From Kiloniella laminariae DSM 19542 (GTDB lineage Bacteria > Pseudomonadota > Alphaproteobacteria > Kiloniellales > Kiloniellaceae), in contig NZ_KB893168.1 in assembly GCF_000374005.1 (NCBI RefSeq), positions 62,184 to 126,183 on the forward strand: a stretch of DNA of 64,000 nucleotides. The letters are read 5' to 3'. Numbering within the stretch: the stretch's first letter is position 1; every line of letters begins with the position of its first letter. A model generated the notes under the pieces. That model was not told where the DNA came from. It did not search any database and worked only from the letters and a program-made list of their open reading frames with translations. Below, in pieces: positions 39,723 to 52,107 of the stretch. Made by a program: the position numbers and the translations under genes.

Positions 39723-40662
39723 GTATCACTTCTCCCAAATTCCCTGCCATTAGAAGCAAGGCGTTTCCCTGTTCACAGCCTCTGTAGAACGTACTTGGCG
39801 CCAAGAAAGCTGTTTCGTTTATCGTTGGGTAAATGTTCGCTTGAATCAGGACCTGTTTGCCGAGACACCTCCCTGTCGAGTGTTGTAAAAAGCACCTCTT
39901 AAGCTTTTGATAAATATAGTAAAGGCACCTTCTTTTTGTAAAAAAATACGCGTAGAAAACACTATAAGTTCTGATAAAAAGGAAAATTGTAAAAACTGGG
40001 AGGTACACCGAAGCAGCAACAAAAATGAATTCTCTGACACAAAGAGATTTCTGGTACTTACAACAGACATACCCACTGTCAGCTCCTTACCTGAACCGAC
40101 CAAAAGGCAACTGTGAAAGACATGCGTTCTTGTAAACGGCTTACGTCATTTGTCAGATCGCACAACACTTTAAAACGACTAGAAAAATCGTTTGCTGCCT
40201 TGGTCAACTTGTCATCGGCGAGTATTTACACCCCTACAGCCCGATAACCCTTACGTCACAGCTCAAATACACAAACAAACAAAATACTGGTGATCTCAGG
40301 GAATAATACACCACATAGACAAATTCTGAAAAAAAATTACAAATACCCTTCGTACTCTGAAAAGAATATTATAATTTTCACTCATCAATATCCTGAAAAT
40401 ATTTGCATTTTCATATTTTCCTACCCCATCATAAATAAAGGCATTTTTCATTTATGAAAACACGAAACCCCATTTCAAGATACGATCACGAACAGCTCTT
40501 GGCGCGAAAGATCTGAATATTACCTGTTCTTTGTTTTATTGGCTTTAACTGCCTTGTTATTAATACGGTAATCGAAATGAAAATTCGATCTAGTACCAAC
40601 TACAAAAACAAGATGGGTCCAGATAAAAACGGAAAGACACCAGCTTTTTCCCGGACAGGACA
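39723..40662. other. Long non-coding stretch (940 bases)
   Basis: I find no gene here. Open frames at 39846-40103 (-) and 39907-40116 (+) have no ribosome sites and unlikely composition. Visible items are a 12-base palindrome CTTGGCGCCAAG (39794-39805), two copies of CTTACGTCA (40140-40148 and 40250-40258), a TTTTCAT-TT-ATGAAAA dyad (40445-40460), and ATGGGTCCAG at 40613-40622. The stretch is AT-rich, especially 40300-40460. It should contain the promoter of the polyamine operon and could hide a small RNA. Confidence 0.5.
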
Positions 40663-42876
40663 TCAACTGCGAATTTCCTGCATAAAGCCATCTACCTCTT
40701 TGGACAGTGTCTCCAGTTCAACCGCCAGTTTCCGCGAGGCACTCAATACCGTCTCGGAAGCGCCACCAGTCTCTTCTGATGCCCGCATGACTTCCTGGAT
40801 ATTTTGAGACACTCGGGTTGTTCCATCGGCCGCCAACCGTACATTCCTCGACATCTCTCCTGTCGCAGATGACTGTTCCGTCACGGCAGCGGCAATTGAG
40901 CTGGTGATCTCATCGACATTCCCTACAGCCAGGGTAACTTTTTTGATCGCATCCGCAGCCTGTTGCACAGTAGAACGTATTGTCGAGATCTGGGTAGAGA
41001 TGTCATCGGTAGCAGAACCGGTTTGGGTTGCCAGATTTTTCACTTCTGACGCCACAACTGCAAATCCCTTGCCTGCATCCCCTGCCCTGGCGGCTTCGAT
41101 TGTGGCATTCAATGCCAAAAGGTTGGTTTGATCCGCAATTTCACTGATCAGATCAACAACCGCTCCGATTTTTTCTGCGGCTTCAGACAGACTGTCCACA
41201 GCCTGGTTGGTCTCTCTCGCATCCGAACTGACTTCGCGTGAAGCCGTTGCAGCCAAAGCAGTCTGACGGCTGATTTCCTCAATCGAGGAGGAAAGCTCTT
41301 CTGAGGCAGCAGCAACGGAATCAACATTAACGGATACATCTGACGAAGCCTGTGATGCCTGAGACGATTTTTGCTGTGCCCGCCCGGCGATATCATTCAT
41401 CCCTTGAGCCGTTGTACTTAAATCAGAAACAGAGGATTGAACCGTCGAGACGATGGCTTTGACCCGGCTATTGAATTGGTCAGCAAGAGCATTCATATCA
41501 GCTTTGCGCTTCGCTTCAGCCACTTCTTTCGCCTCTTCGCGTTCACGCCGCAATCGCTCGACATTCAGAGCATTTTTCTTAAAAACCTCCAGTGCCCGGG
41601 CCATGGCCCCGATTTCATCATTCTGTCCCGCAGCAACTTCAACGGTTAGATCGCCATTGGCAATGTCACCCATGGCAGAAGACAGCACCACCAGGCGTTC
41701 GATTATCATTCGGCCAACATAAAAGAAGACGATGAACAGCGCGAGAATGACAGACAGAACCGAGATGGCTGATAGCCAGAATTTACCTTCGGCAATAGCC
41801 TCTTCAGAAACAGAAACCGAGGCCACTGCCCCTTCCGCTGCTCCGGAGACCACCTCGCTGATCAAGGCAGTAAGCTCCAAAGAAAGTTCGGTATTTCTTG
41901 CAGATAACACTTGGATTTTTTGTTGTTCCAGCAGCATGGAACGACGGTAGGAAAAGACGGTTTCTTCGGTCGTCAACAGACTGAAGAGCTTTTTACCAAG
42001 CTCGCGTATTTTAACGGCCTCGGCAGAGATATCATCGCTGATCAGGGACAGATTATTTTCGCTGCGTGCAACAGCATTTTTGACCTGCTCTTCAGCCCCA
42101 TCCACCGCAACAGGATCTTTTGCCGAAATTGCCTCCGCGAGCTGCGCAAAAATAAAATTAATATCGACCCGCAAACCAGATGAAACCTGATTTCTGGTTA
42201 CAGAAATCAGAATTTCAATCAGCTGACTGGTAACATCGGAACTACCGAAGGCCTGATCAATTGAATCCTCTGCTGTTTTCTTCGCCTGCTCCTGGTACGG
42301 AATAACAACAGTATCAAAGGCATACTTCAGCTCCAGAAGATCAGCCATTTTTGCCGTCCCCTGATTTTCCAGCTCCAGTTGGCGAGATACAGAATTATTG
42401 AGTTCAGAAAGATTTGAAGAAATATCTGCCGAGACACGGCTTAATCCCTGACTAATAGAGGCGTCAAAGTTTCCGGCTTTGAGCTCTTCGGTCAGATTTT
42501 CGAGCTCCTTTTCCCGCTCCTGAAGCGAGGTATAAACTCTGTTCTTAACATCCAGGTCCGGTGCCGAGATCAAGGCAGGCGCAGCCGTGGCGATTTTTGT
42601 TCCGATATCAGACAGCTTTAATGCCGTCGTCATCTGCGGCATGCTGCGACTTGAAATTTGTTCCAGAGACTGGTTCACCCCCTGAAAAGAGATCCAGCCG
42701 ACCAATCCTGCGAGGAGTGTTGTCGCTACGATACTCCCTACGGCAAGAAGCATCTTTACTTTAACACTTAACCCACGCTTCAGCTCATCAGGTAATATAG
42801 ATTTGTTTTCGTATAGAGTAGACGTTCCGGTTGCTTGATCCCCGTCACCATGAGAACCCGAAGTGGTTTCAGACAT
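40663..42876 (-). CDS. Methyl-accepting chemotaxis protein
   Basis: A 737-residue membrane receptor. Membrane segments lie near 41-63 ([17 protein letters not shown]) and 365-390 ([18 protein letters not shown]), enclosing a periplasmic helical sensor of about 300 residues. HAMP follows ([17 protein letters not shown]), and the signalling hairpin tip is [21 protein letters not shown] (in two overlapping parts). It senses an unidentified ligand and drives the CheA kinase. Its sensor size is larger than the 4-helix-bundle type, resembling helical-bimodular receptors. No other chemotaxis gene is nearby. Confidence 0.95.
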
Positions 42877-43240
42877 ATTCGTCTCCCCTGGAAGCCCTGA
42901 TCCCCAACCGGTCCCCGATTGAACAGATTTCTTCCCCTATTTGATACACAACAGACAAATTTTTGGCCCGAACCACCCTACAGGGCCCCTTAAAGGCGAT
43001 GATCATAGGGGCAAATGTCTTAAAATCTTCCTACCCAAAGATTCCAGAGCAGCTTTCTCCAGCTAAAAATCGCCTAAACTTGCTATAAATCCGCTGGTAA
43101 CGGTAAGACCGGAAAAAGCCCTGCGGTTAGAACCAGTGCAGAGAACATGATGAGTCCAGAGAGAAAGCGTGATATAGCCTTTTGATCAAATGACTTAGAT
43201 TGCTGTAAAGAATCCGGATAATTATTGAGGGGATATACAG
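42877..43240. promoter_or_regulatory. Divergent control region of the chemoreceptor and MocR-type genes
   Basis: This 364-base gap holds no gene. On the minus strand it carries CTGGACTCAT (43150-43159) and CTGGTTCTAA (43127-43136), 23 bases apart in the same orientation. They resemble the CTGGACYTAA box reported for TauR regulators and lie 80-110 bases before the MocR-type start. Confidence 0.4.
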
Positions 43241-44731
43241 GTGGCCAGCGATATACTTTTCCATTTGGATAAAAACAGCCGTGAATCCCTGCAAAGCCAG
43301 CTTAGAAGAGCAATCCTCAATGCCATCCTCAACAGCACCCTGCCCGCTGGTTTCAAATTGCCCTCCAGCCGCAAGCTCGCAAAAGATCTGGGCATTTCCC
43401 GCAACACAGCCATTTTGGTTTATCAAAGCCTGACGGATGACGGATATCTGGTTGCTCACGAAAGAAGTGGTCTTTTTGTGAACAAGGATTTTGTCGCGGG
43501 ATTGGAACAGTCCCGCCTGACACCGGAAAAAGCAAGAGCTCCGCTCCGCAATCAGGATAAAGATCCGGACTGGAACAGTCGTCTTTTTCTCCGCCCTTCA
43601 GATCTCGACTATCTAAACCTTCCCAAAAACTGGCAACACAAACCTTATCCATTTATATATGGCCAGCCAGACCGCGGCTTGTTTCCTCTGACAGCCTGGA
43701 GGGAATGCAGCAGGTTAGCTCTCAGTACCCGTGATATGGCGGATTGGATCCACGACGACAAGATCTATGACGATCCACAGCTGGTCGAGCAGATCAGAAC
43801 CCGTCTGCTCCCGGCAAGAGGCATACATGTGTCCAGTGACCAGATTTTGGTTACCTTGGGCGGGCAAAATGCGCTCTATATGCTTGCGGGACTACTTGTG
43901 CGCAAAAATACCCGGGTTGCTGTTGAAAACCCCGGCTATCCGGATGCGAAAAACATCATGCGGCTTTTTACCGAAAAGCTTACCGCAATTCCCGTTGATG
44001 AACAGGGCATGGTGGTAGATGAACGCCTGAATGACTGTGACTATGCTTTTGTCACACCAAGCCACCAGTGCCCGACAACCGTAACCATGCCTCTGTCTCG
44101 ACGGTGCAAACTTCTTGAAAAGGCGGAAGAACAGGATTTTCTGGTTATAGAAGACGATTATGAAAACGAGATCAACTATTTCAAATCAGCCAGCCCTTCG
44201 CTCAAAGCTCTCGATACCAACAATCGGGTTATCTATATCAGCAGTCTTTCCAAAACCCTGTTTCCCGGGCTGCGGGTCGGCTATGTCGTCGCAGCGCCCG
44301 AACTGATTGCCCAGTTAAGTGATTTCCGCCGCCTCGTCGTCCGTTATACCCCGAGCAATAACCAGAGAACCGTCGCCCTGTTCCTTTCCCACGGCTATTA
44401 TGACAGCCTCATCTATAGCTTGAGAAAACGTTGGCATCGTCGGTGGGAAGCGGTGAGCGAGGCGCTCGACAGCTTTCTACCACAATGCAGTTATCCTCAT
44501 TCATCCGGTGGCACCTCCTACTGGGTCCAGATCCCGGAGCAACTCAGTGCCGATACATTAGCCAAAGAAGCATACAATGACGGTGTCCTGATTGAATCCG
44601 GACGGCCATTTTTTCTCGAACGCCCTGCCCCCGACACCCATATCCGGATTGGTTTTACCTCCATAGAAACCGCCAAGATCGAACCTGGTATCAAGCAGCT
44701 GGCAAGTACGATTGACCGTCTTGCCAAATAA
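43241..44731 (+). CDS. MocR-type regulator (GntR HTH fused to aminotransferase), TauR-like
   Basis: A 496-residue protein. Residues 1-75 form a GntR winged helix (LPSSRKLAKDLGISRNTAILVYQSL, then RSGLFVN). The rest is a fold-type I aminotransferase domain, with PLP contacts in NPGYPDA, VTPSHQCPTT, EDDYENE and the Schiff-base Lys in SSLSKTLFPGLR. GTG 43241 has GAGGGG about ten bases upstream. Such proteins bind PLP plus an amino compound as effector and act on nearby genes. Placement before pta and soeABC resembles TauR of taurine-using alphaproteobacteria. Because tpa and xsc are missing here, the effector stays uncertain. Confidence 0.9.
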   Translation: MASDILFHLDKNSRESLQSQLRRAILNAILNSTLPAGFKLPSSRKLAKDLGISRNTAILVYQSLTDDGYLVAHERSGLFVNKDFVAGLEQSRLTPEKARAPLRNQDKDPDWNSRLFLRPSDLDYLNLPKNWQHKPYPFIYGQPDRGLFPLTAWRECSRLALSTRDMADWIHDDKIYDDPQLVEQIRTRLLPARGIHVSSDQILVTLGGQNALYMLAGLLVRKNTRVAVENPGYPDAKNIMRLFTEKLTAIPVDEQGMVVDERLNDCDYAFVTPSHQCPTTVTMPLSRRCKLLEKAEEQDFLVIEDDYENEINYFKSASPSLKALDTNNRVIYISSLSKTLFPGLRVGYVVAAPELIAQLSDFRRLVVRYTPSNNQRTVALFLSHGYYDSLIYSLRKRWHRRWEAVSEALDSFLPQCSYPHSSGGTSYWVQIPEQLSADTLAKEAYNDGVLIESGRPFFLERPAPDTHIRIGFTSIETAKIEPGIKQLASTIDRLAK

Positions 44732-44768
44732 CAAGATCACATCCCCCGGTATATCCCAGTGACCCCGA

Positions 44769-44817
44769 CTGAACCTGTTCACCAGAACTGGACCCATCGA
44801 AAGGCTCCATATGGAGC
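44769..44817. promoter_or_regulatory. Direct repeats and a 14-base palindrome between the MocR-type gene and pta
   Basis: CTGAACCTGT (44769-44778) and CTGGACCCAT (44788-44797) form two similar 10-mers 19 bases apart. A perfect palindrome, GCTCCATATGGAGC, follows at 44804-44817. This is a plausible binding region for the MocR-type regulator ahead of the leader ORF and pta. It also lies in a 460-base non-coding gap. Confidence 0.45.
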
Positions 44818-44943
44818 TAGTCGCAACCTCACTGGCGATAAAGAATTGCAGCAGAACAGGTAAACCTGATCAGGCGACGTTTCCTGCATCGAAACCGATT
44901 TGGGAAAAACAGCAAAACCATCAGGTTGCGCAGGAGGTGTTGT

Positions 44944-45057
44944 ATGTTGATTTTTGAACTCATCCGCTTAGTAGAAAAAAAGATCAGGCCCTTTGTCATT
45001 TCCAAAGGACAGCCCACCCTGCTTTCTCCGGTTCACATCCCTGTCAAACGGAAGTGA
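44944..45057 (+). CDS. Candidate leader peptide, 37 codons
   Basis: ATG 44944 is preceded at a 6-base distance by GGAGG (44933-44937), one of the best ribosome sites in the window. The frame runs 37 codons to TGA 45055-45057. The peptide begins MLIFELIRLVEKK and ends HIPVKRK. It is basic, with no membrane segment and no obvious run of one amino acid. The stop lies 14 bases before the first arm of the candidate attenuator. It is either a leader peptide whose translation controls pta or an independent small protein; it matches no family I know. Confidence 0.45.
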   Translation: MLIFELIRLVEKKIRPFVISKGQPTLLSPVHIPVKRK

Positions 45058-45070
45058 AACTGCTGAGGTG

Positions 45071-45135
45071 TCCCGACGACCTTCGGCATAAACTCATCGG
45101 GAGTGACTCTGAAACAGGAAGAACTCCCGGTTTTT
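45071..45135 (+). promoter_or_regulatory. Candidate attenuator: competing hairpins upstream of pta
   Basis: Terminator form: CGGGAGT (45098-45104) pairs with ACTCCCG (45123-45129), with a small inner CTG/CAG stem, and is followed by GTTTTTC. Alternative form: TCCCGA (45071-45076) pairs with TCGGGA (45097-45102), which would block the terminator arm. The two cannot form together. They lie between the leader ORF and the pta start at 45194. Confidence 0.5.
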
Positions 45136-45193
45136 CATTTGAAATCGACTTTTCACAGTTCAGGCGGATACGCATAAAAATGAGATTTCATCA

Positions 45194-46111
45194 ATGTTAA
45201 GCCAACATCCCATAGAATGCCCAACCCGTTTGATGAGCACGGCTGCGGCTCACGGCCCTGTAAGAACGGCTATTGTAAATGCGGTGAGCCCCATCGCAAT
45301 GGAAAGTGCCTTTCTCGCAGCACAAGCCCGGCTTATTGAGCCCATATTGATTGGGAATAAAGAAACGGTAAGAACTCTGGCAGCAGGATTTGACTGGGAT
45401 ATCAACCATCTGGAAATTCACCATGCTCCAGATGAACAAACCGCTGCCGTTTCTGCTGTCGAGCTTGCTCGTAACGGGATGGTTGATGCCTTGATGAAAG
45501 GCCAGATTCATACTGATGTATTTATGAAAGCAATCATTGATCGCTCAAAAGGATTACGGCGTGAAGGTCGTCTCTCACACGCCTTTTACATGTCGGTGCC
45601 AGATTCAGACCGGATTGTAGTAATCACTGACGCAGCGATTAATATTGCACCTGATCTGGAAACCAAAAAGTCAATTATTCTCAATGCGGTAAAGATGCTT
45701 CATTCCCTGGGAAACAAACATCCCAAGGTCGCCGTGCTTTCGGCGAGTGAAGAGGAAAATCCACGTATTCCCTCAAGCATGGAAGCTGCTGAACTCACAC
45801 GCTGGGCAAAAGCCTCAATCACACATGCCGATGTTTTTGGCCCCATGGCTCTGGATAATGCGATCTCTCCCGAAGCAGCCCGGATAAAAGGCATAGATAA
45901 TGCCGTGGCCGGACAGGCCGATATCCTTGTGGTCCCCAACATTGAAACAGGCAATGCTCTGTTTAAACAGCTGGTTTACTGCGACAGCGCCTGTGCTGCA
46001 GGTATCGTCCTAGGCGCTTCCGTACCCATCGTCCTCACCAGTCGTGCCGACCCTCCTGCTGCACGTTTGGCCAGCATGGCTATTGCAACCATAGTTGCAC
46101 AAAATGTATAA
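45194..46111 (+). CDS. pta: Phosphate acetyl/butyryltransferase
   Basis: A 305-residue enzyme of the short Pta/Ptb family, which lacks the long regulatory N-terminus of E. coli Pta. It converts acetyl phosphate and CoA to acetyl-CoA in the cytosol. Visible landmarks are MDALMKGQIHTD, SHAFYMSVP, ITDAAINIAPDLETK and the C-terminal VVPNIETGNALFKQL, followed by GASVPIVLTSRAD. In alphaproteobacterial organosulfonate pathways this enzyme recovers the acetyl phosphate made by Xsc, which releases sulfite at the same time. Placement before the sulfite dehydrogenase genes fits that; xsc is not present in the window. A candidate attenuator precedes it. Confidence 0.88.
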   Translation: MLSQHPIECPTRLMSTAAAHGPVRTAIVNAVSPIAMESAFLAAQARLIEPILIGNKETVRTLAAGFDWDINHLEIHHAPDEQTAAVSAVELARNGMVDALMKGQIHTDVFMKAIIDRSKGLRREGRLSHAFYMSVPDSDRIVVITDAAINIAPDLETKKSIILNAVKMLHSLGNKHPKVAVLSASEEENPRIPSSMEAAELTRWAKASITHADVFGPMALDNAISPEAARIKGIDNAVAGQADILVVPNIETGNALFKQLVYCDSACAAGIVLGASVPIVLTSRADPPAARLASMAIATIVAQNV

Positions 46112-46214
46112 ACATCTTGAACAACTGTTTAAGAAATAACGAACTTAACAATCAGTCATAACTCGACCAAAAATAAAAAAAGACAACAGGGTTGCTACAG
46201 GATGGAGATAAAAT

Positions 46215-49169
46215 ATGAGCTTCTTGCCCACGTCCAGACAGGAGCAGGTTGAGACCTCTCCCCACGTATCGGACGAGGTAAAGACGACCACCTGTTATAT
46301 GTGCGCCTGCCGTTGCGGCATCAAAGTGCATTTAAGAGGCGACCAGATCCGTTACATCGAAGGCAATCCGGATCACCCTGTCAATAAAGGGGTGCTTTGT
46401 GCCAAAGGCTCGGCCGGGATTATGCAGCACAACTCCCCTGCCCGGTTGCGCAAGCCTCTGTTGCGCACAGGCGAGCGTGGCTCTGGCGAGTTCAGGGAAA
46501 TAGAATGGGAAGAAGCGCTGGAACTGGCGACGGGCTGGCTTGGCAATATCCGAAAAACGGATCCAGCCAAACTCGCCTTCTTCACCGGACGCGACCAGTC
46601 GCAGAGCCTGACCGGCTGGTGGGCCGCCAAATTCGGCACCCGCAACTTTGCAGCCCATGGTGGGTTTTGTTCTGTAAATATGGCAGCAGCCGGACTTTAT
46701 ACGGCTGGGGGCTCGTTCTGGGAATTTGGCGAGCCTGACTGGGATCTGACGAAATACTTGCTGATGTTCGGTGTTGCCGAAGACCACGATTCCAATCCGA
46801 TCAAAATTGGCCTTGGCAAACTTAAAGGCCGCAAGGGCACCAAGTTTGTTTCTGTAAACCCGGTCCGCACAGGCTATTCAGGTATTGCAGATGAGTGGAT
46901 CGGTATTCGCCCGGGCACTGATGGCCTTCTGGTTTTTGCCCTGATCCATGAGCTGCTCAAGGCAGAAAAGGTCGACTGGCAATATCTGTCGCGCTACACC
47001 AATGCTACCTGGCTGGTGATCCAGGACCAAGGAGCCGCTGACGATGGTCTTTTTGCTCGGGACGTCGATACAAATCCGCTTTGTTATGACGCTCAGAAAA
47101 AATTCCTGACTTCAGCCAACAATCCCGAGGCACAGCCTGCTCTGGTTGGAGAATATATCCTGCCGGATGGACGTAAAGCTGTACCGGCTTTTCAGTTGAT
47201 GGCCGAACGTTATCTTGATCCCAAGTATGCGCCGGATGCAGTTGCCGAACAGATTGGCTATAGCGCTGCAAACATTCGGCGCATTGCTGCTGAAATTGCC
47301 GAAGTGGCCTTCGAGCAGGAAATTATTCTGGATGTTCCCTGGACTGACTGGGCGGGTCGCAAGCAGGACAAGATGATTGGTCGCCCGGTTTCCATGCATG
47401 CCATGCGCGGGATCTCTGCCCACTCCAACGGTTTTCATACCTGTCGCGCCATTCATGTCCTGCAGATGTTGCTTGGCTCGATTGATGTGCCGGGAGGTTT
47501 CCGACATAAGCCCCCTTTCCCGCGCCCCTGCCCCCCCGGACCAAAACCTGCCGGACAGGACTCACTTGCCAATACGCCCCTACCAGGCATGCCGCTGGGC
47601 TTTCCCACAGGCCCGGAAGATCTGCTGGTCGAAAAAGACGGCAGCCCGAAACGGATCGACAAGGCCTACAGTTGGGAGTTTCCTCTCGCCTCTCATGGCC
47701 TGATGCACATGGTAATCCACAACGCCTGGAAGGGAGATCCATACCCGGTGGATACTCTGTTCATGTATATGGCAAACATGAGCTGGAACAGCTCCATGAA
47801 TGTGCCGGGAACGATCAAGTATCTGACGGATAAAAACGAAGATGGCGGGTACAAAATCCCCCGGATTATCTATTCTGACGCCTACCATTCTGAAATGGTG
47901 GCTTATGCAGATCTGGTTCTGCCAGATACCACCTACTTGGAACGCTGGGACTGTATCTCGCTGCTGGACCGTCCGATCTGCAGTGCGCATGGGCCAGCGG
48001 ACTCTATTCGCCAACCTGTGGTCAAGCCGGATCGTGATGTCAGGGCATTTCAGGAAGTCCTGCTTGATCTTGGGGCCCGCCTCGGTCTGCCTGGTATGGT
48101 GAAAGAAGACGGGTCCCCCGCCTATCCCGGTGGCTATGCAGACTATATCACCAACCATGAACGAACCCCGGGTGTCGGGCCGCTTGCAGGGTGGCGTGGC
48201 AAGGACGGCACCAGCCATGGCAAAGGAACTCCAAACCAGGGTCAACTTCAGCGCTATATTGATAACGGGTGTTTCTGGTCGGATGAATTCACGGCAGAAC
48301 AGTCTTATTTCAAATTTGCCAATCGCTCCTATCTCGACCGGGCACAGAGCATGGGCTGGATCCCTTCGGCGGATCGGATCGTGATGCAGATCTATTCAGA
48401 GCCAATGCAGAAATTCCGTCTTGCGGCGCTCGGACATGGGGAGATCCAGCCGCCTGATCACCTGCGCAGCCGGATCGAGGAAAATTTTGATCCCCTGCCT
48501 CTCTGGTATCAGCCGCTTGAAGAAAAAGCTTTTGATGGCGATGACTATCCCCTGCATGCCATCACCCAACGCCCGATGCACATGTACCACAGCTGGGGAT
48601 CCCAGAACGCCTGGTTACGCCAGATCACAGCGCAGAATCGCCTGTTCATAAACAAGAACACTGCAGAGAAACAGGGGATTGCAGACGATGACTGGATCTG
48701 GGTTGTCTCTCCCCATGGCAAGGTCAAAACCCAGGTGCGCCTGATGAGCGGGGTCAATCCCGATACAATCTGGACCTGGAATGCCATTGGAAAACGCAAG
48801 GGAACCTGGGGACTTGATCCGAAAGCACCGGAATCAAACAAAGGTTTCCTGCTCAATCATATCATTTCTGAACTTCTGCCTCCCAGAGCAGATGGCTATC
48901 GCTATTCAAATTCAGATCCCGTCACAGGACAAGCTGCCTGGTATGATTTGAGAGTGCGCATCGAAAAGTGTGATGCAACGGAAGAAACGGTGACAGAGCC
49001 GCTGTTTGATACTCTGCCCCCTATTCCCAATGCGCCGGAACAGCTTGCTGTTCTTCGTTATGGTGAAAATTTCCCACCCGCGAAATCTCTAAACAAAAAA
49101 AGCCCGACAACCGAGCACAAAGAACCAGCTCTGGTATACAAAACAAATGTGAAGGGGGAAGCATCATGA
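46215..49169 (+). CDS. soeA: Membrane sulfite dehydrogenase, molybdopterin subunit (SoeA-like)
   Basis: A 984-residue DMSO-reductase-family enzyme. The N-terminal [4Fe-4S] cysteines are Cys27, Cys30, Cys34 and Cys62 (CYMCACRCG ... GVLCAKG). The Mo region includes HGGFCSVNMAAAG, then FGVAEDHDSNPIK. There is no twin-arginine signal, so it faces the cytoplasm, as known for SoeA and unlike most relatives. It oxidises sulfite to sulfate with AMP-independent transfer to the Fe-S subunit and quinone. GGAG precedes the ATG. It overlaps soeB by four bases (ATGA). Alternatives such as polysulfide or thiosulfate reductase are less likely because these are exported. Confidence 0.88.
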   Translation: MSFLPTSRQEQVETSPHVSDEVKTTTCYMCACRCGIKVHLRGDQIRYIEGNPDHPVNKGVLCAKGSAGIMQHNSPARLRKPLLRTGERGSGEFREIEWEEALELATGWLGNIRKTDPAKLAFFTGRDQSQSLTGWWAAKFGTRNFAAHGGFCSVNMAAAGLYTAGGSFWEFGEPDWDLTKYLLMFGVAEDHDSNPIKIGLGKLKGRKGTKFVSVNPVRTGYSGIADEWIGIRPGTDGLLVFALIHELLKAEKVDWQYLSRYTNATWLVIQDQGAADDGLFARDVDTNPLCYDAQKKFLTSANNPEAQPALVGEYILPDGRKAVPAFQLMAERYLDPKYAPDAVAEQIGYSAANIRRIAAEIAEVAFEQEIILDVPWTDWAGRKQDKMIGRPVSMHAMRGISAHSNGFHTCRAIHVLQMLLGSIDVPGGFRHKPPFPRPCPPGPKPAGQDSLANTPLPGMPLGFPTGPEDLLVEKDGSPKRIDKAYSWEFPLASHGLMHMVIHNAWKGDPYPVDTLFMYMANMSWNSSMNVPGTIKYLTDKNEDGGYKIPRIIYSDAYHSEMVAYADLVLPDTTYLERWDCISLLDRPICSAHGPADSIRQPVVKPDRDVRAFQEVLLDLGARLGLPGMVKEDGSPAYPGGYADYITNHERTPGVGPLAGWRGKDGTSHGKGTPNQGQLQRYIDNGCFWSDEFTAEQSYFKFANRSYLDRAQSMGWIPSADRIVMQIYSEPMQKFRLAALGHGEIQPPDHLRSRIEENFDPLPLWYQPLEEKAFDGDDYPLHAITQRPMHMYHSWGSQNAWLRQITAQNRLFINKNTAEKQGIADDDWIWVVSPHGKVKTQVRLMSGVNPDTIWTWNAIGKRKGTWGLDPKAPESNKGFLLNHIISELLPPRADGYRYSNSDPVTGQAAWYDLRVRIEKCDATEETVTEPLFDTLPPIPNAPEQLAVLRYGENFPPAKSLNKKSPTTEHKEPALVYKTNVKGEAS

Positions 49170-49918
49170 CCTGCCTTCCTGTTGTCAATCCGACAAAAAA
49201 ACTGGGACTGGTTATAGACCTGGATATCTGTGTTGGTTGCCATGCCTGTGCTGTCAATTGCAAGGAGTGGAACACGGGAGGTCATTCAGCACCCCTGACC
49301 GACCTTGATCCCTACGGGGCTGACCCCAATGGTGTCTGGTTTAACCGTATTCACAGTTTTGAAGTTGTGGATGAGGACAATGACAGTAAAACAGTTCACT
49401 TCCCCAAAAGCTGCCTGCATTGTGATGATGCCCCCTGCGTGACTGTTTGCCCGACCGGGGCATCCTATAAACGTGAAGAAGACGGCATTGTTCTGGTTGA
49501 TGCCGACAAATGCATCGGCTGTAAACTCTGTTCCTGGGCCTGCGCCTATGGGGCAAGAGAATATGATGAAGATGTCGGTATCATGAAAAAATGCACTCTC
49601 TGTGTTGACCGGATCTACAACGAGAACCTGCCCGAAGCCTCCAGAGTTCCTGCCTGTGTCTCCACCTGCCCGGTCGGAGCCAGATCTTTTGGGGATTTCA
49701 ATGACCCCAAATCCCATGTCAGCCTGTTGGTCGCGGACCGGGGTGGTTTTGACCTGATGGCCGAGCTTGACTACAAACCTGTGAACAAATATCTGCCTCC
49801 GCGTCCGAAACAGAATGAACACAGTTGTGCCGCCAACAAGCCCAAACAGCTTACCCCGGTCGCAACAGAAAAAGCCGGACTCTTTGCCCGCTGGGCCGAC
49901 AAGGTATTGTCCCTGTGA
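49166..49918 (+). CDS. soeB: Membrane sulfite dehydrogenase, Fe-S subunit (SoeB-like)
   Basis: A 250-residue DmsB/PhsB-type electron-transfer protein with four cysteine groups for four [4Fe-4S] clusters: CVGCHACAVNC, CLHCDDAPCVTVCP, CIGCKLCSWAC and CTLCVDRI with CVSTCP. It passes electrons from the SoeA molybdenum site to the SoeC membrane anchor. AAGGGGGAAGC lies upstream of the start, which overlaps the SoeA stop. The C-terminal tail of about 45 residues is rich in Lys and Pro and has no cysteines. Confidence 0.92.
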   Translation: MTCLPVVNPTKKLGLVIDLDICVGCHACAVNCKEWNTGGHSAPLTDLDPYGADPNGVWFNRIHSFEVVDEDNDSKTVHFPKSCLHCDDAPCVTVCPTGASYKREEDGIVLVDADKCIGCKLCSWACAYGAREYDEDVGIMKKCTLCVDRIYNENLPEASRVPACVSTCPVGARSFGDFNDPKSHVSLLVADRGGFDLMAELDYKPVNKYLPPRPKQNEHSCAANKPKQLTPVATEKAGLFARWADKVLSL

Positions 49919-49957
49919 ACAAAATTAATTCAATACACTCCAAGCAAGAGGCCCTCT

Positions 49958-50911
49958 ATGCATCCGGCTAAGTCCGTTATTCTGTTCACCACGGCTTCCG
50001 GGGCCGGATATGGCATGATCTTCCTGCTGACGTTAGGTCAGTTGCTTGGAATACTTCCATTTAACAGTACCCTGGCTTTCAGCGGCTTCGGTACAGCTTT
50101 TTTCCTGATTATCCTGGGGCTGGCTTCATCAACCTTTCATCTGGGCCGTCCGGAAAGAGCCTGGAGGGCTCTGAGCCAGTGGCGAAGTTCATGGCTGAGC
50201 CGGGAAGGAATTCTGGCCATATCCAGCTTTATTCCTGCAGGCCTTTATGCACTGCTCATTGTGGTTGGACAGGGTAGCTTTGATGGTCTGGTGATATTTT
50301 CAGGTCTGGTAAGCCTGATGCTTTGCACAGCAACCGTTTACTGCACAGCCATGATCTATGCATCCCTGAAGCCGATACCCGCCTGGTATAATCGATTGGT
50401 GCCCACAAGTTATCTGGTGCTTGCTCTCTCTTCCGGAGCCCTGCTCCTGAGCTGTATTTTGCACTTTCAGGGGCTCAGTGACCTGATCACCGATATTACC
50501 ACCATCATCCTGTTGCTGGCATCTCTCGTGACCAAGTTTCTCTACTGGCAACATATCGCCGAACACAGGGGACGGTCCTCTGTCGGGACAGCCACAGGAC
50601 TTGGCAAGCTGGGCAAGGTTCGCCTTCTCGAAGCCGCCCACAGTGAAGCCAACTATCTGATGAAGGAAATGGGTTTCAGGATTGCCCGAAAACACAGTCA
50701 ACGTTTACGCAAGATCACTTTTATCAGTGGATTTGTTCTGCCAGTTTTTCTGATTTCTCTTGTCGGAGTTCTGGCAAGTACAACACTCGCCAATCTCGTG
50801 ATGATACTGGCCATACTGATGGGAACAACAGGTATTCTCACAGAACGCTGGCTATTTTTTGCAGAGGCAAAACACACTGTAAGCCTCTATTACGGAGCAG
50901 AAAAACTTTAA
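49958..50911 (+). CDS. soeC: Membrane sulfite dehydrogenase, anchor subunit (SoeC/DmsC-like)
   Basis: A 317-residue protein with about eight membrane segments, of the DmsC family. It contains STFHLGRPERAWRALSQWRSSWLSRE (in two parts), the characteristic DmsC loop with conserved His and Arg. It anchors SoeAB and exchanges electrons with quinone. AAGAGG lies six bases before the start. A strong terminator follows 40 bases after the stop. Confidence 0.88.
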   Translation: MHPAKSVILFTTASGAGYGMIFLLTLGQLLGILPFNSTLAFSGFGTAFFLIILGLASSTFHLGRPERAWRALSQWRSSWLSREGILAISSFIPAGLYALLIVVGQGSFDGLVIFSGLVSLMLCTATVYCTAMIYASLKPIPAWYNRLVPTSYLVLALSSGALLLSCILHFQGLSDLITDITTIILLLASLVTKFLYWQHIAEHRGRSSVGTATGLGKLGKVRLLEAAHSEANYLMKEMGFRIARKHSQRLRKITFISGFVLPVFLISLVGVLASTTLANLVMILAILMGTTGILTERWLFFAEAKHTVSLYYGAEKL

Positions 50912-50950
50912 AACCATACCTCCTTGATGGATATCTCCTCAAGGAAACTC

Positions 50951-50989
50951 CGCTGAGGCAGAAAGTTACTCTGCCTCAGCGTTTTTTTT
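50951..50989 (+). terminator. Rho-independent terminator after soeC
   Basis: A perfect 12-base stem, CGCTGAGGCAGA/TCTGCCTCAGCG, with a 7-base loop, is followed by eight T. Confidence 0.95.
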
Positions 50990-51009
50990 ATTACATATCC
51001 CTGATGCAA

Positions 51010-52107
51010 TCAGGCAACGTGTTTTACTGTACGGCCTGCACCAGTGCCTTTCATCTGACGTTGCCGGGCCTGCAAGATTTTTTCCTGAGCCATACTGTCC
51101 GCGACATCACTTGTTGCACGACCTTCCCGATCAGCACGGATGAATATGTCCAGCAGGACATCGTGGATACTGGCAACTTTGGAATCAACCAGAGTACGGT
51201 CATAGCGCCCGATAATTTCTCCGGCCACATTGATGATGCCCCCAGCATTGATCACATAATCAGGAGCATAGAGGATTTTCTGCAGGCGCAAGAGATCGCC
51301 ATCCGATGCTGAGGATAACTGGTTGTTCGCAGCACCAGCCACAATCCTGGCCTTGATCCGCGGGATACTTTGTTCATTCATAATAGCCCCGAGAGCACAG
51401 GGCGCGACCACATCAGCATCACAAAACAGGATTTCATCACAGGAAACAGCTGTCGCCCCGAAAGCGGATACAGCCTTTCTTGTGATGTCATCGTTAATAT
51501 CGGCAACTATCAACTTTGCCCCGGCCCTGTGGAGTTCCTCGCAAAGGTGCCATCCGACATGCCCCAGCCCCTGAACGGCCACAACAAGCCCCCTGACATC
51601 TTGTTTTCCCAGACGATGCCTGACAGCAGCTCTAATCCCGTTAAAGGTTCCCCGTGCCGTAAAAGGCGACGGGTCACCACTTGCTGCCTGCCCGGAGTTC
51701 AACCCGCCAACATGATCTGTTTCCTGGGCGACAATTTCCATATCCGATACAGAGATGCCGACATCTTCGGCTGTGATGTATTTTCCAGAAAGTCCCTCGA
51801 CAAAACGACCAAATGAGCGAAATAGCGCTTCTGACTTATCCTTGCCTGCATCCCCTATTATAACAGCCTTGCCGCCACCAAGTTCCAGTCCAGCCATGGC
51901 ATTTTTATAGCTCATTCCCCTTGAAAGCCTCAGGGCATCCCTGAGAGCTTCCTCGTCACTGGCATAGGACCACATACGGCAACCGCCTGCTGCAGGCCCC
52001 AAAGCGGTTGAATGAACCGCGATTATTGCCTTGAGGCCGGAAATGGCATCATGGCAAAAAACAACCTGCTCGTGCCCGGCAAAAGCCTCGTGATTAAATA
52101 CGCTCAT
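51010..52107 (-). CDS. Leucine dehydrogenase-type amino-acid dehydrogenase
   Basis: A 365-residue enzyme of the Glu/Leu/Phe/Val dehydrogenase family. The two catalytic lysines fall at Lys68 (MSYKNA) and Lys80 (ELGGGKAVI), the same numbers as in characterised leucine dehydrogenase. The nucleotide loop is VQGLGHVGWHLC. It oxidatively deaminates branched-chain amino acids to 2-oxo acids with NAD+. It lies beside the valine-degradation operon and is divergent from an Lrp-type regulator. The next step, the branched-chain oxoacid dehydrogenase, is not encoded in the window. Confidence 0.9.
   Translation of the reverse strand: MSVFNHEAFAGHEQVVFCHDAISGLKAIIAVHSTALGPAAGGCRMWSYASDEEALRDALRLSRGMSYKNAMAGLELGGGKAVIIGDAGKDKSEALFRSFGRFVEGLSGKYITAEDVGISVSDMEIVAQETDHVGGLNSGQAASGDPSPFTARGTFNGIRAAVRHRLGKQDVRGLVVAVQGLGHVGWHLCEELHRAGAKLIVADINDDITRKAVSAFGATAVSCDEILFCDADVVAPCALGAIMNEQSIPRIKARIVAGAANNQLSSASDGDLLRLQKILYAPDYVINAGGIINVAGEIIGRYDRTLVDSKVASIHDVLLDIFIRADREGRATSDVADSMAQEKILQARQRQMKGTGAGRTVKHVA

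Follow-up and report, generated by a model that had tools for sequence, protein, structure and literature searches.

A possible conditional terminator in the leader of the pta-soeABC genes of Kiloniella laminariae

Attenuators of the trp, his and leu type consist of a short open reading frame (ORF) with a Shine-Dalgarno (SD) sequence, followed, ahead of the operon, by an antiterminator and an intrinsic terminator that exclude each other. The leader peptides TnaC and SpeFL arrest the ribosome at the stop codon, and these systems are Rho-based and have conserved arrest residues. For taurine catabolism, the main text of PMC5320631 gives CTGGACYTAA as the TauR repeat and describes TauR regulons that hold pta, to which some Rhodobacterales add bisC, dmsC and hybA genes. 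In an open-access literature collection that mostly excludes subscription papers, with the papers retrieved judged by title and the start of the abstract, we found no leader-peptide attenuator for soeABC, sulfoacetaldehyde, phosphotransacetylase, Rhodospirillales or the taurine metabolism of Kiloniella.

We analysed a 64,000-nucleotide (nt) stretch of the K. laminariae DSM 19542 genome, hereafter the window, in which a regulator gene is followed by a 462-nt gap, pta and the genes of oxidoreductase subunits (46215-50911).

43241-44731, forward strand: gene for a MocR/GntR-type PLP-dependent regulator, TauR-like by context (Pfam GntR and Aminotran_1_2)
45194-46111, forward strand: pta, phosphate acetyltransferase-like (Pfam PTA_PTB, 1.3e-39)
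46215-49169, forward strand: soeA-like molybdopterin oxidoreductase gene (Pfam)
49166-49918, forward strand: soeB-like 4Fe-4S subunit gene (Pfam Fer4_11)
49958-50911, forward strand: soeC-like membrane anchor gene (Pfam DmsC)
50951-50981, forward strand: strong terminator-like hairpin at the operon end, 12 pairs then TTTTTTTT, -22.3 kcal/mol

The name TauR is suggested by the operator and the regulated genes and fits the Pfam domains; the best NCBIfam model for the regulator is PdxR, above the cut-off of that model. The names SoeA, SoeB and SoeC are compatible with the Pfam results, and among the NCBIfam matches shown, none reached its cut-off for these subunits. The operon genes appear to process taurine-breakdown products. 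The pathway genes lie on more than one contig: the genome has one xsc gene above the family cut-off, on a contig other than that of pta, and the TauR-type half site CTGGACCTA precedes it there (L089, 6231-6239).

The gap between the regulator gene and pta was compared with that of the other Kiloniella-type pta loci, one in K. laminariae G21630-S1 (L035) and six elsewhere (L036-L040 and L028).

44788-44819, forward strand: putative TauR-type operator CTGGACCCATCGAAAGGCTCCATATGGAGCTA, fitting the TauR repeat CTGGACYTAA
44840-44847, forward strand: AAAGAATT, possible part of a promoter -10 region

The operator block is recognisable in all eight loci, with the first C of CTGGAC changed to T in L036 and L028, and positions 44786-44825 are identical to L035 at 40 of 40 sites. 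With this putative CTGGAC-type operator upstream, pta-soeABC carries the mark expected of a TauR-regulon member. The AAAGAATT element lies exactly 20 nt after the operator in seven of the eight loci, and this constant distance suggests that the promoter is probably common to loci with and without the leader described below.

The sequence-only reading of this region had proposed a leader-peptide attenuator starting from a 37-codon ORF preceded by GGAGG.

44933-44937, forward strand: Shine-Dalgarno sequence GGAGG of ORF1
44944-45057, forward strand: leader ORF1, 37 codons, stop codon TGA at 45055-45057, same open length in L035
45054-45200, forward strand: ORF2, 48 codons, GTG start, open in both genomes

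ORF1 is present as proposed, with 6 nt between GGAGG and the ATG at 44944, and is predicted to be a translatable short leader ORF. It keeps its SD, start, length and stop in L035, and the SD/start region (44929-44950, 22 nt) is identical there, which is not unusual because 68% of shuffles give a 21-nt identical run somewhere in the leader. The peptide is 57% identical between the two genomes. Its 25 nucleotide differences fall 5/10/10 on the three codon positions (23/14/103 in pta), and 9 of them are synonymous and 16 not, with 6.8 synonymous changes expected (chance 0.19), so that neither the codon positions nor the synonymous counts of this pair revealed selection on the ORF1 peptide. Since 33% of 2000 random substitution sets leave ORF1 open, the frame could have persisted by chance. 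The last ten residues form a shared end, SPVH(I/V)PVKRK, with a single I/V change, while the rest is divergent, on the evidence of two sequences. That the peptide has no run of one amino acid was confirmed; it ends in P-V-K-R-K, and we found in ORF1 neither control codons, a codon run nor a rare-codon cluster pointing to a signal, CGG (37 times) and AAG (58 times) being not rare among the 3461 codons of seven window genes. A 3-nt insertion in L035 puts the ORF1 stop 3 nt further from the first hairpin.

ORF2 overlaps the ORF1 stop at its start (GTGA) and the pta start at its stop (ATGTTAA), and stays open in L035 across the 3-nt indel. Its differences fall 6/4/4 on the codon positions (4 synonymous, 10 not), and about 84% of random substitution sets keep it open. 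No family matched ORF1 at thresholds of E 0.001 in Pfam and E 0.1 in NCBIfam, and none in NCBIfam matched ORF2. A protein-coding account of the leader was rejected, as both frames are without a codon-position signal and without a family.

Downstream of ORF1, folding predicts three competing structures ahead of a T tract.

45061-45088, forward strand: HP1, hairpin competing with the antiterminator, -13.1 kcal/mol
45071-45102, forward strand: antiterminator, 45071-45079 paired with 45094-45102 with one C.A mismatch, -8.6 kcal/mol
45096-45131, forward strand: HP2, intrinsic-terminator hairpin, -15.7 kcal/mol
45131-45135, forward strand: terminator T tract (TTTTT after HP2), identical in L035

The two stems proposed earlier, TCCCGA (45071-45076) with TCGGGA (45097-45102), and CGGGAGT (45098-45104) with ACTCCCG (45123-45129) followed by GGTTTTTC, are both present and do share bases 45098-45102. 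The first consists of 6 base pairs and is extendable by two more across the C.A mismatch. HP1 was not part of that two-stem description, and its presence makes a three-state layout possible. It is a small hairpin (5-nt loop, one bulge) that begins 3 nt past the ORF1 stop and contains TCCCGA in its 5′ arm and loop. Because the operator lies upstream of HP2, whose end is 312 nt past the operator and 62 nt ahead of pta, any transcript coming from there has to run through HP2 before it gets to pta-soeABC. Rfam gave no match at gathering score in the window.

The stability of these folds was compared with that of shuffled sequences. The 81-nt stretch 45060-45140 folds at -30.2 kcal/mol (z -3.47), and none of 200 dinucleotide shuffles was as stable, whereas 44926-45200 as a whole does not stand out (z -1.02), its stability being equalled in 26 of 200 shuffles. 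Individually, HP2 was matched by 0.3% of 1000 shuffles and HP1, in the upstream 38 nt, by 0.38% of 5000. The antiterminator pairing alone is within chance: 6 or more Watson-Crick pairs with the 5′ arm of the terminator were obtained in 7.0% of 5000 shuffled 38-mers and in 2.1% of 5000 random 38-mers of the window. Stability of HP1 grade together with at least 6 pairs was found in none of 5000 shuffles and in 0.06% of 5000 random window 38-mers. When the window was scanned for hairpins that adjoin T-rich runs and are at least as stable as -12 kcal/mol, 32 sites emerged, HP2 included. At 19 of these, the upstream 60 nt can form six or more pairs with the 5′ arm, counting G-U, so that an antiterminator match by itself says little. 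A third hairpin, spanning the pta start (about 45136-45195), was rejected, being matched by 18.6% of 1000 shuffles; it is in the RNAalifold consensus and overlaps the sole inverted repeat, and the corresponding stretch of L035 has a different minimum fold.

The leader differs from that of L035 at 59 of 341 positions. Four-fold degenerate sites differ by 40% in pta, 43% in the tauR-like gene and 55% in soeA, and the leader as a whole therefore looks constrained. Only four of the 76 positions of 45061-45136 differ, a divergence as low as in a fraction of 0.00065 of 20000 shuffles, or 0.021 when any 76-nt stretch is allowed. This stem region is better conserved than ORF1. One of the four substitutions is in HP1 and converts U.G to U-A, and the three in the inner part of HP2 create one new pair, convert U.G to U-A and convert U-A to U.G; no pair is broken, and HP2 is stronger in L035 (-18.6 kcal/mol). 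When the five changes of 45058-45136 were placed randomly, the fold was as stable in 353 of 20000 trials and no pair was broken in 3402 of 20000, which gives modest support to stem conservation. RNAalifold with the two sequences retains HP1 and HP2, and among its 69 consensus pairs the one two-sided compensatory change is in the ORF1 region, outside both hairpins. Both arms of the antiterminator are unchanged in L035 and therefore carry no covariation information. These positions, predicted folds and their conservation in two genomes were read directly from the data. Aligned with L035 over 106 columns, the spacer between pta and soeA (46112-46214) shows 5 substitutions and one gap of 2 nt. It is about as conserved as the stem region, though no such structure is claimed there, and low divergence alone therefore does not indicate an attenuator. 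Against the other five loci, the pta-soeA spacer is alike mainly near the soeA start. The spacer between regulator and operator is only 49% identical to that of L035. Protein identity between the window and L035 is uneven along 43241-49111 (tauR-like 97%, soeA-like 93%, pta 89%).

The pta gene was sought in 58 genomes, own included, and in a species collection (28 loci). Conservation of the ORF and the stems, which the attenuator proposal had named as its check, was seen in K. laminariae G21630-S1 and failed in the six other Kiloniella-type loci; among the genomes searched, the leader is present in these two marine K. laminariae genomes only. The distance from operator to pta is 374 and 377 nt in the two leader-bearing loci and 132-154 nt in the other six, where we found no hairpin-plus-T site of -6 kcal/mol or better between operator and pta. 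The gene soeA follows pta in L035-L040, and L028 ends inside pta. A DNA search with 44730-45200 matched three of the 58 genomes, namely the own genome, G002 (taken as the same genome as L035) and G008, in which the match covers 31 nt of the operator only. Wide conservation was not found with the RNA model R1 either, which matched 2 of 61 genomes of the order, both being its source genomes, and 1 of 385 in a class sample, the window's own genome, G002 being evidently not in that sample. A protein search with ORF1 in the 61 genomes returned the two leader genomes and a weak match in G008 (E 0.043, residues 10-31), which lies on a different contig from the pta of G008 and was treated as chance.

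A terminator scan of up to 500 nt upstream of pta covered 31 loci, the window included, and left about 20 other pta loci outside. Candidates in L010, L014, L015, L016 and L050 have unrelated sequence and different neighbours, and those in L038 and L040 were rejected as lying inside the regulator gene. A tree of the regulators groups the window with L035 (96/100) and does not place L036 firmly. The leader was probably gained in the K. laminariae lineage, gain being a simpler reading than loss. A mobile element or repeat was rejected, since 44730-45200 has a single match in its own genome; plasmids and phages gave no match to 44860-45193, and 44730-45200 itself contains two short repeats, one direct and one inverted. 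Allowing at most 2 mismatches, TGTCCCGACGACCTTC occurs 8 times in the genome (one exact) versus 6 for a control pattern, and we found no second leader copy in the genome beyond chance-level matches of 20-21 nt. In the same survey, a metagenome bin labelled Rickettsia typhi (L051) has a 43% identical pta, and the label looks doubtful.

The effect of a ribosome on the competing folds was modelled by a partition-function sweep on 45040-45136, with occlusion edges every 3 nt and truncated transcripts ending at 45103 or 45122. A ribosome has a footprint of about 11-14 nt, and edges 45063-45072 are the predicted reach of a ribosome with the last ORF1 codons or the stop in its A site. Without occlusion, or with occlusion only to 45060, the antiterminator probability was 0.0. 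At edges 45063, 45066, 45069 and 45072 it became 0.51, 0.99, 1.0 and 0.6 for the transcript ending at 45103, and 0.76, 0.8, 0.91 and 0.01 for that ending at 45122; occlusion to 45075 gave no antiterminator. Among the tested edges, only 45063-45072 yield the antiterminator, and they do so in incomplete transcripts. In L035, the corresponding values (positions aligned on HP1) were 0.86, 1.0, 1.0 and 0.99, and 0.13, 0.37, 0.73 and 0.0. Once transcription has completed HP2, its probability is 1.0 in both genomes for all occlusions tested. HP2 thus wins at equilibrium in all states, and antitermination could only be kinetic. Both stems of the proposed mutual exclusion can fold, and they overlap, but the antiterminator pairing is no rarer than chance allows and gives way to HP2 at equilibrium.

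On this basis the following sequence of events may be envisaged. The pta-soeABC transcript would be controlled by TauR, and its 5′ leader would hold a conditional intrinsic terminator. By default HP1 would fold first, leaving the terminator 5′ arm free, and HP2 would halt transcription at about 45131-45136. A ribosome on the last codons or the stop of ORF1, with its leading edge at about 45063-45072, would melt HP1, whereupon TCCCGACGA could pair with TCATCGGGA, and with the antiterminator formed, RNA polymerase could clear the T tract ahead of HP2 formation. In this way ORF1 would signal that a ribosome is present, or is slow to leave, at its stop codon. Since ORF1 is without peptide conservation, the ribosome's role is inferred from position, and promoter, termination and read-through are likewise deduced. 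That the leader is a conditional intrinsic terminator, possibly switched by a ribosome at the ORF1 stop, is our tentative reading, to which we give less than an even chance. The attenuator proposal thus survives in its layout, as a terminator-like hairpin, a competing antiterminator and HP1 lie between the operator/promoter region and the genes, but not in peptide selection or wide conservation.

HP2 may instead be a constitutive, perhaps partial, terminator whose effect is simply to reduce pta-soeABC expression or to keep it apart from read-through out of tauR, with HP1 and the antiterminator incidental. Its victory at equilibrium in all states, the frequency of the antiterminator match by chance and the lack of a selection signal in ORF1 all agree with this, but HP1 is significantly stable, adjoins HP2 and stays paired in L035, and a full stop between operator and genes would presumably silence an otherwise intact operon; we regard it as somewhat unlikely. 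The better conservation of the stem region than of ORF1 would also suit an RNA switch under a protein or small ligand, with ORF1 dispensable and its SD and start persisting for RNA reasons or by chance. Against such a switch are the lack of an Rfam family at gathering score in the window, the little room that so small an HP1 would give to a ligand pocket, and the lack of a second genomic copy beyond chance-level 20-21 nt matches, and we consider it unlikely.

The insertion-like distribution and a 9/12 promoter-like match at 45152-45181 would fit 44930-45136 being a separate small protein or RNA unit with its own terminator, inserted behind the operator, with pta transcribed from a new promoter after HP2. 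However, promoter-like matches are at chance level (12 found versus 11.0 expected in 40000-52000), a promoter at 45152-45181 would start transcripts almost at the pta start codon, and ORF1 shows no detectable peptide selection, which makes this account quite unlikely. Translational coupling from ORF1 to ORF2 (GTGA) and on to pta (ATGTTAA), with ORF2 ribosomes also covering HP1 and HP2, would explain why the overlaps at both ends of ORF2 are kept in L035 across the indel, and the pta SD looks weaker here than in other species by our reading. Nevertheless, ORF2 has no coding signature and would be left open by most random substitutions, and we hold coupling to be very improbable. As a special form of the conditional terminator that we tentatively prefer, ORF1 may encode a newly evolved arrest peptide, the ribosome stalling at PVKRK-stop on a metabolite of taurine or sulfite breakdown, melting HP1 and letting polymerase pass to pta-soeABC; this is improbable. 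If true, TauR activation would be joined by a second checkpoint, at the level of translation, which arose inside a single genus and is missing from sister species that keep the promoter.

If real, the conditional terminator would be an attenuator on a sulfonate-catabolism operon, and an example of one that emerged, within a genus, between an operon and its conserved promoter. As the operator and spacing are common to species with and without the leader, the effect of the gain would be directly measurable.

The leader of K. laminariae resembles the trp, his and leu attenuators in its short ORF with an SD, followed by a putative antiterminator and a predicted terminator ahead of the operon, and differs in having no control-codon run. 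ORF1 ends before the first hairpin, which would confine any ribosome action to its final codons or the stop. Those attenuators serve biosynthetic operons, whereas the operon here is catabolic and the leader is found in two genomes only. With TnaC and SpeFL it shares a catabolic operon and the end of the leader ORF as the would-be control point, but the terminator here would be intrinsic, and we saw in the peptide no arrest motif, only the SPVH(I/V)PVKRK end common to both genomes. In the main text of PMC5320631, 'attenuat' is absent and the regulons are controlled by TauR binding, and the K. laminariae locus is like them in its CTGGAC-type operator and in combining pta with bisC/dmsC/hybA-type genes.
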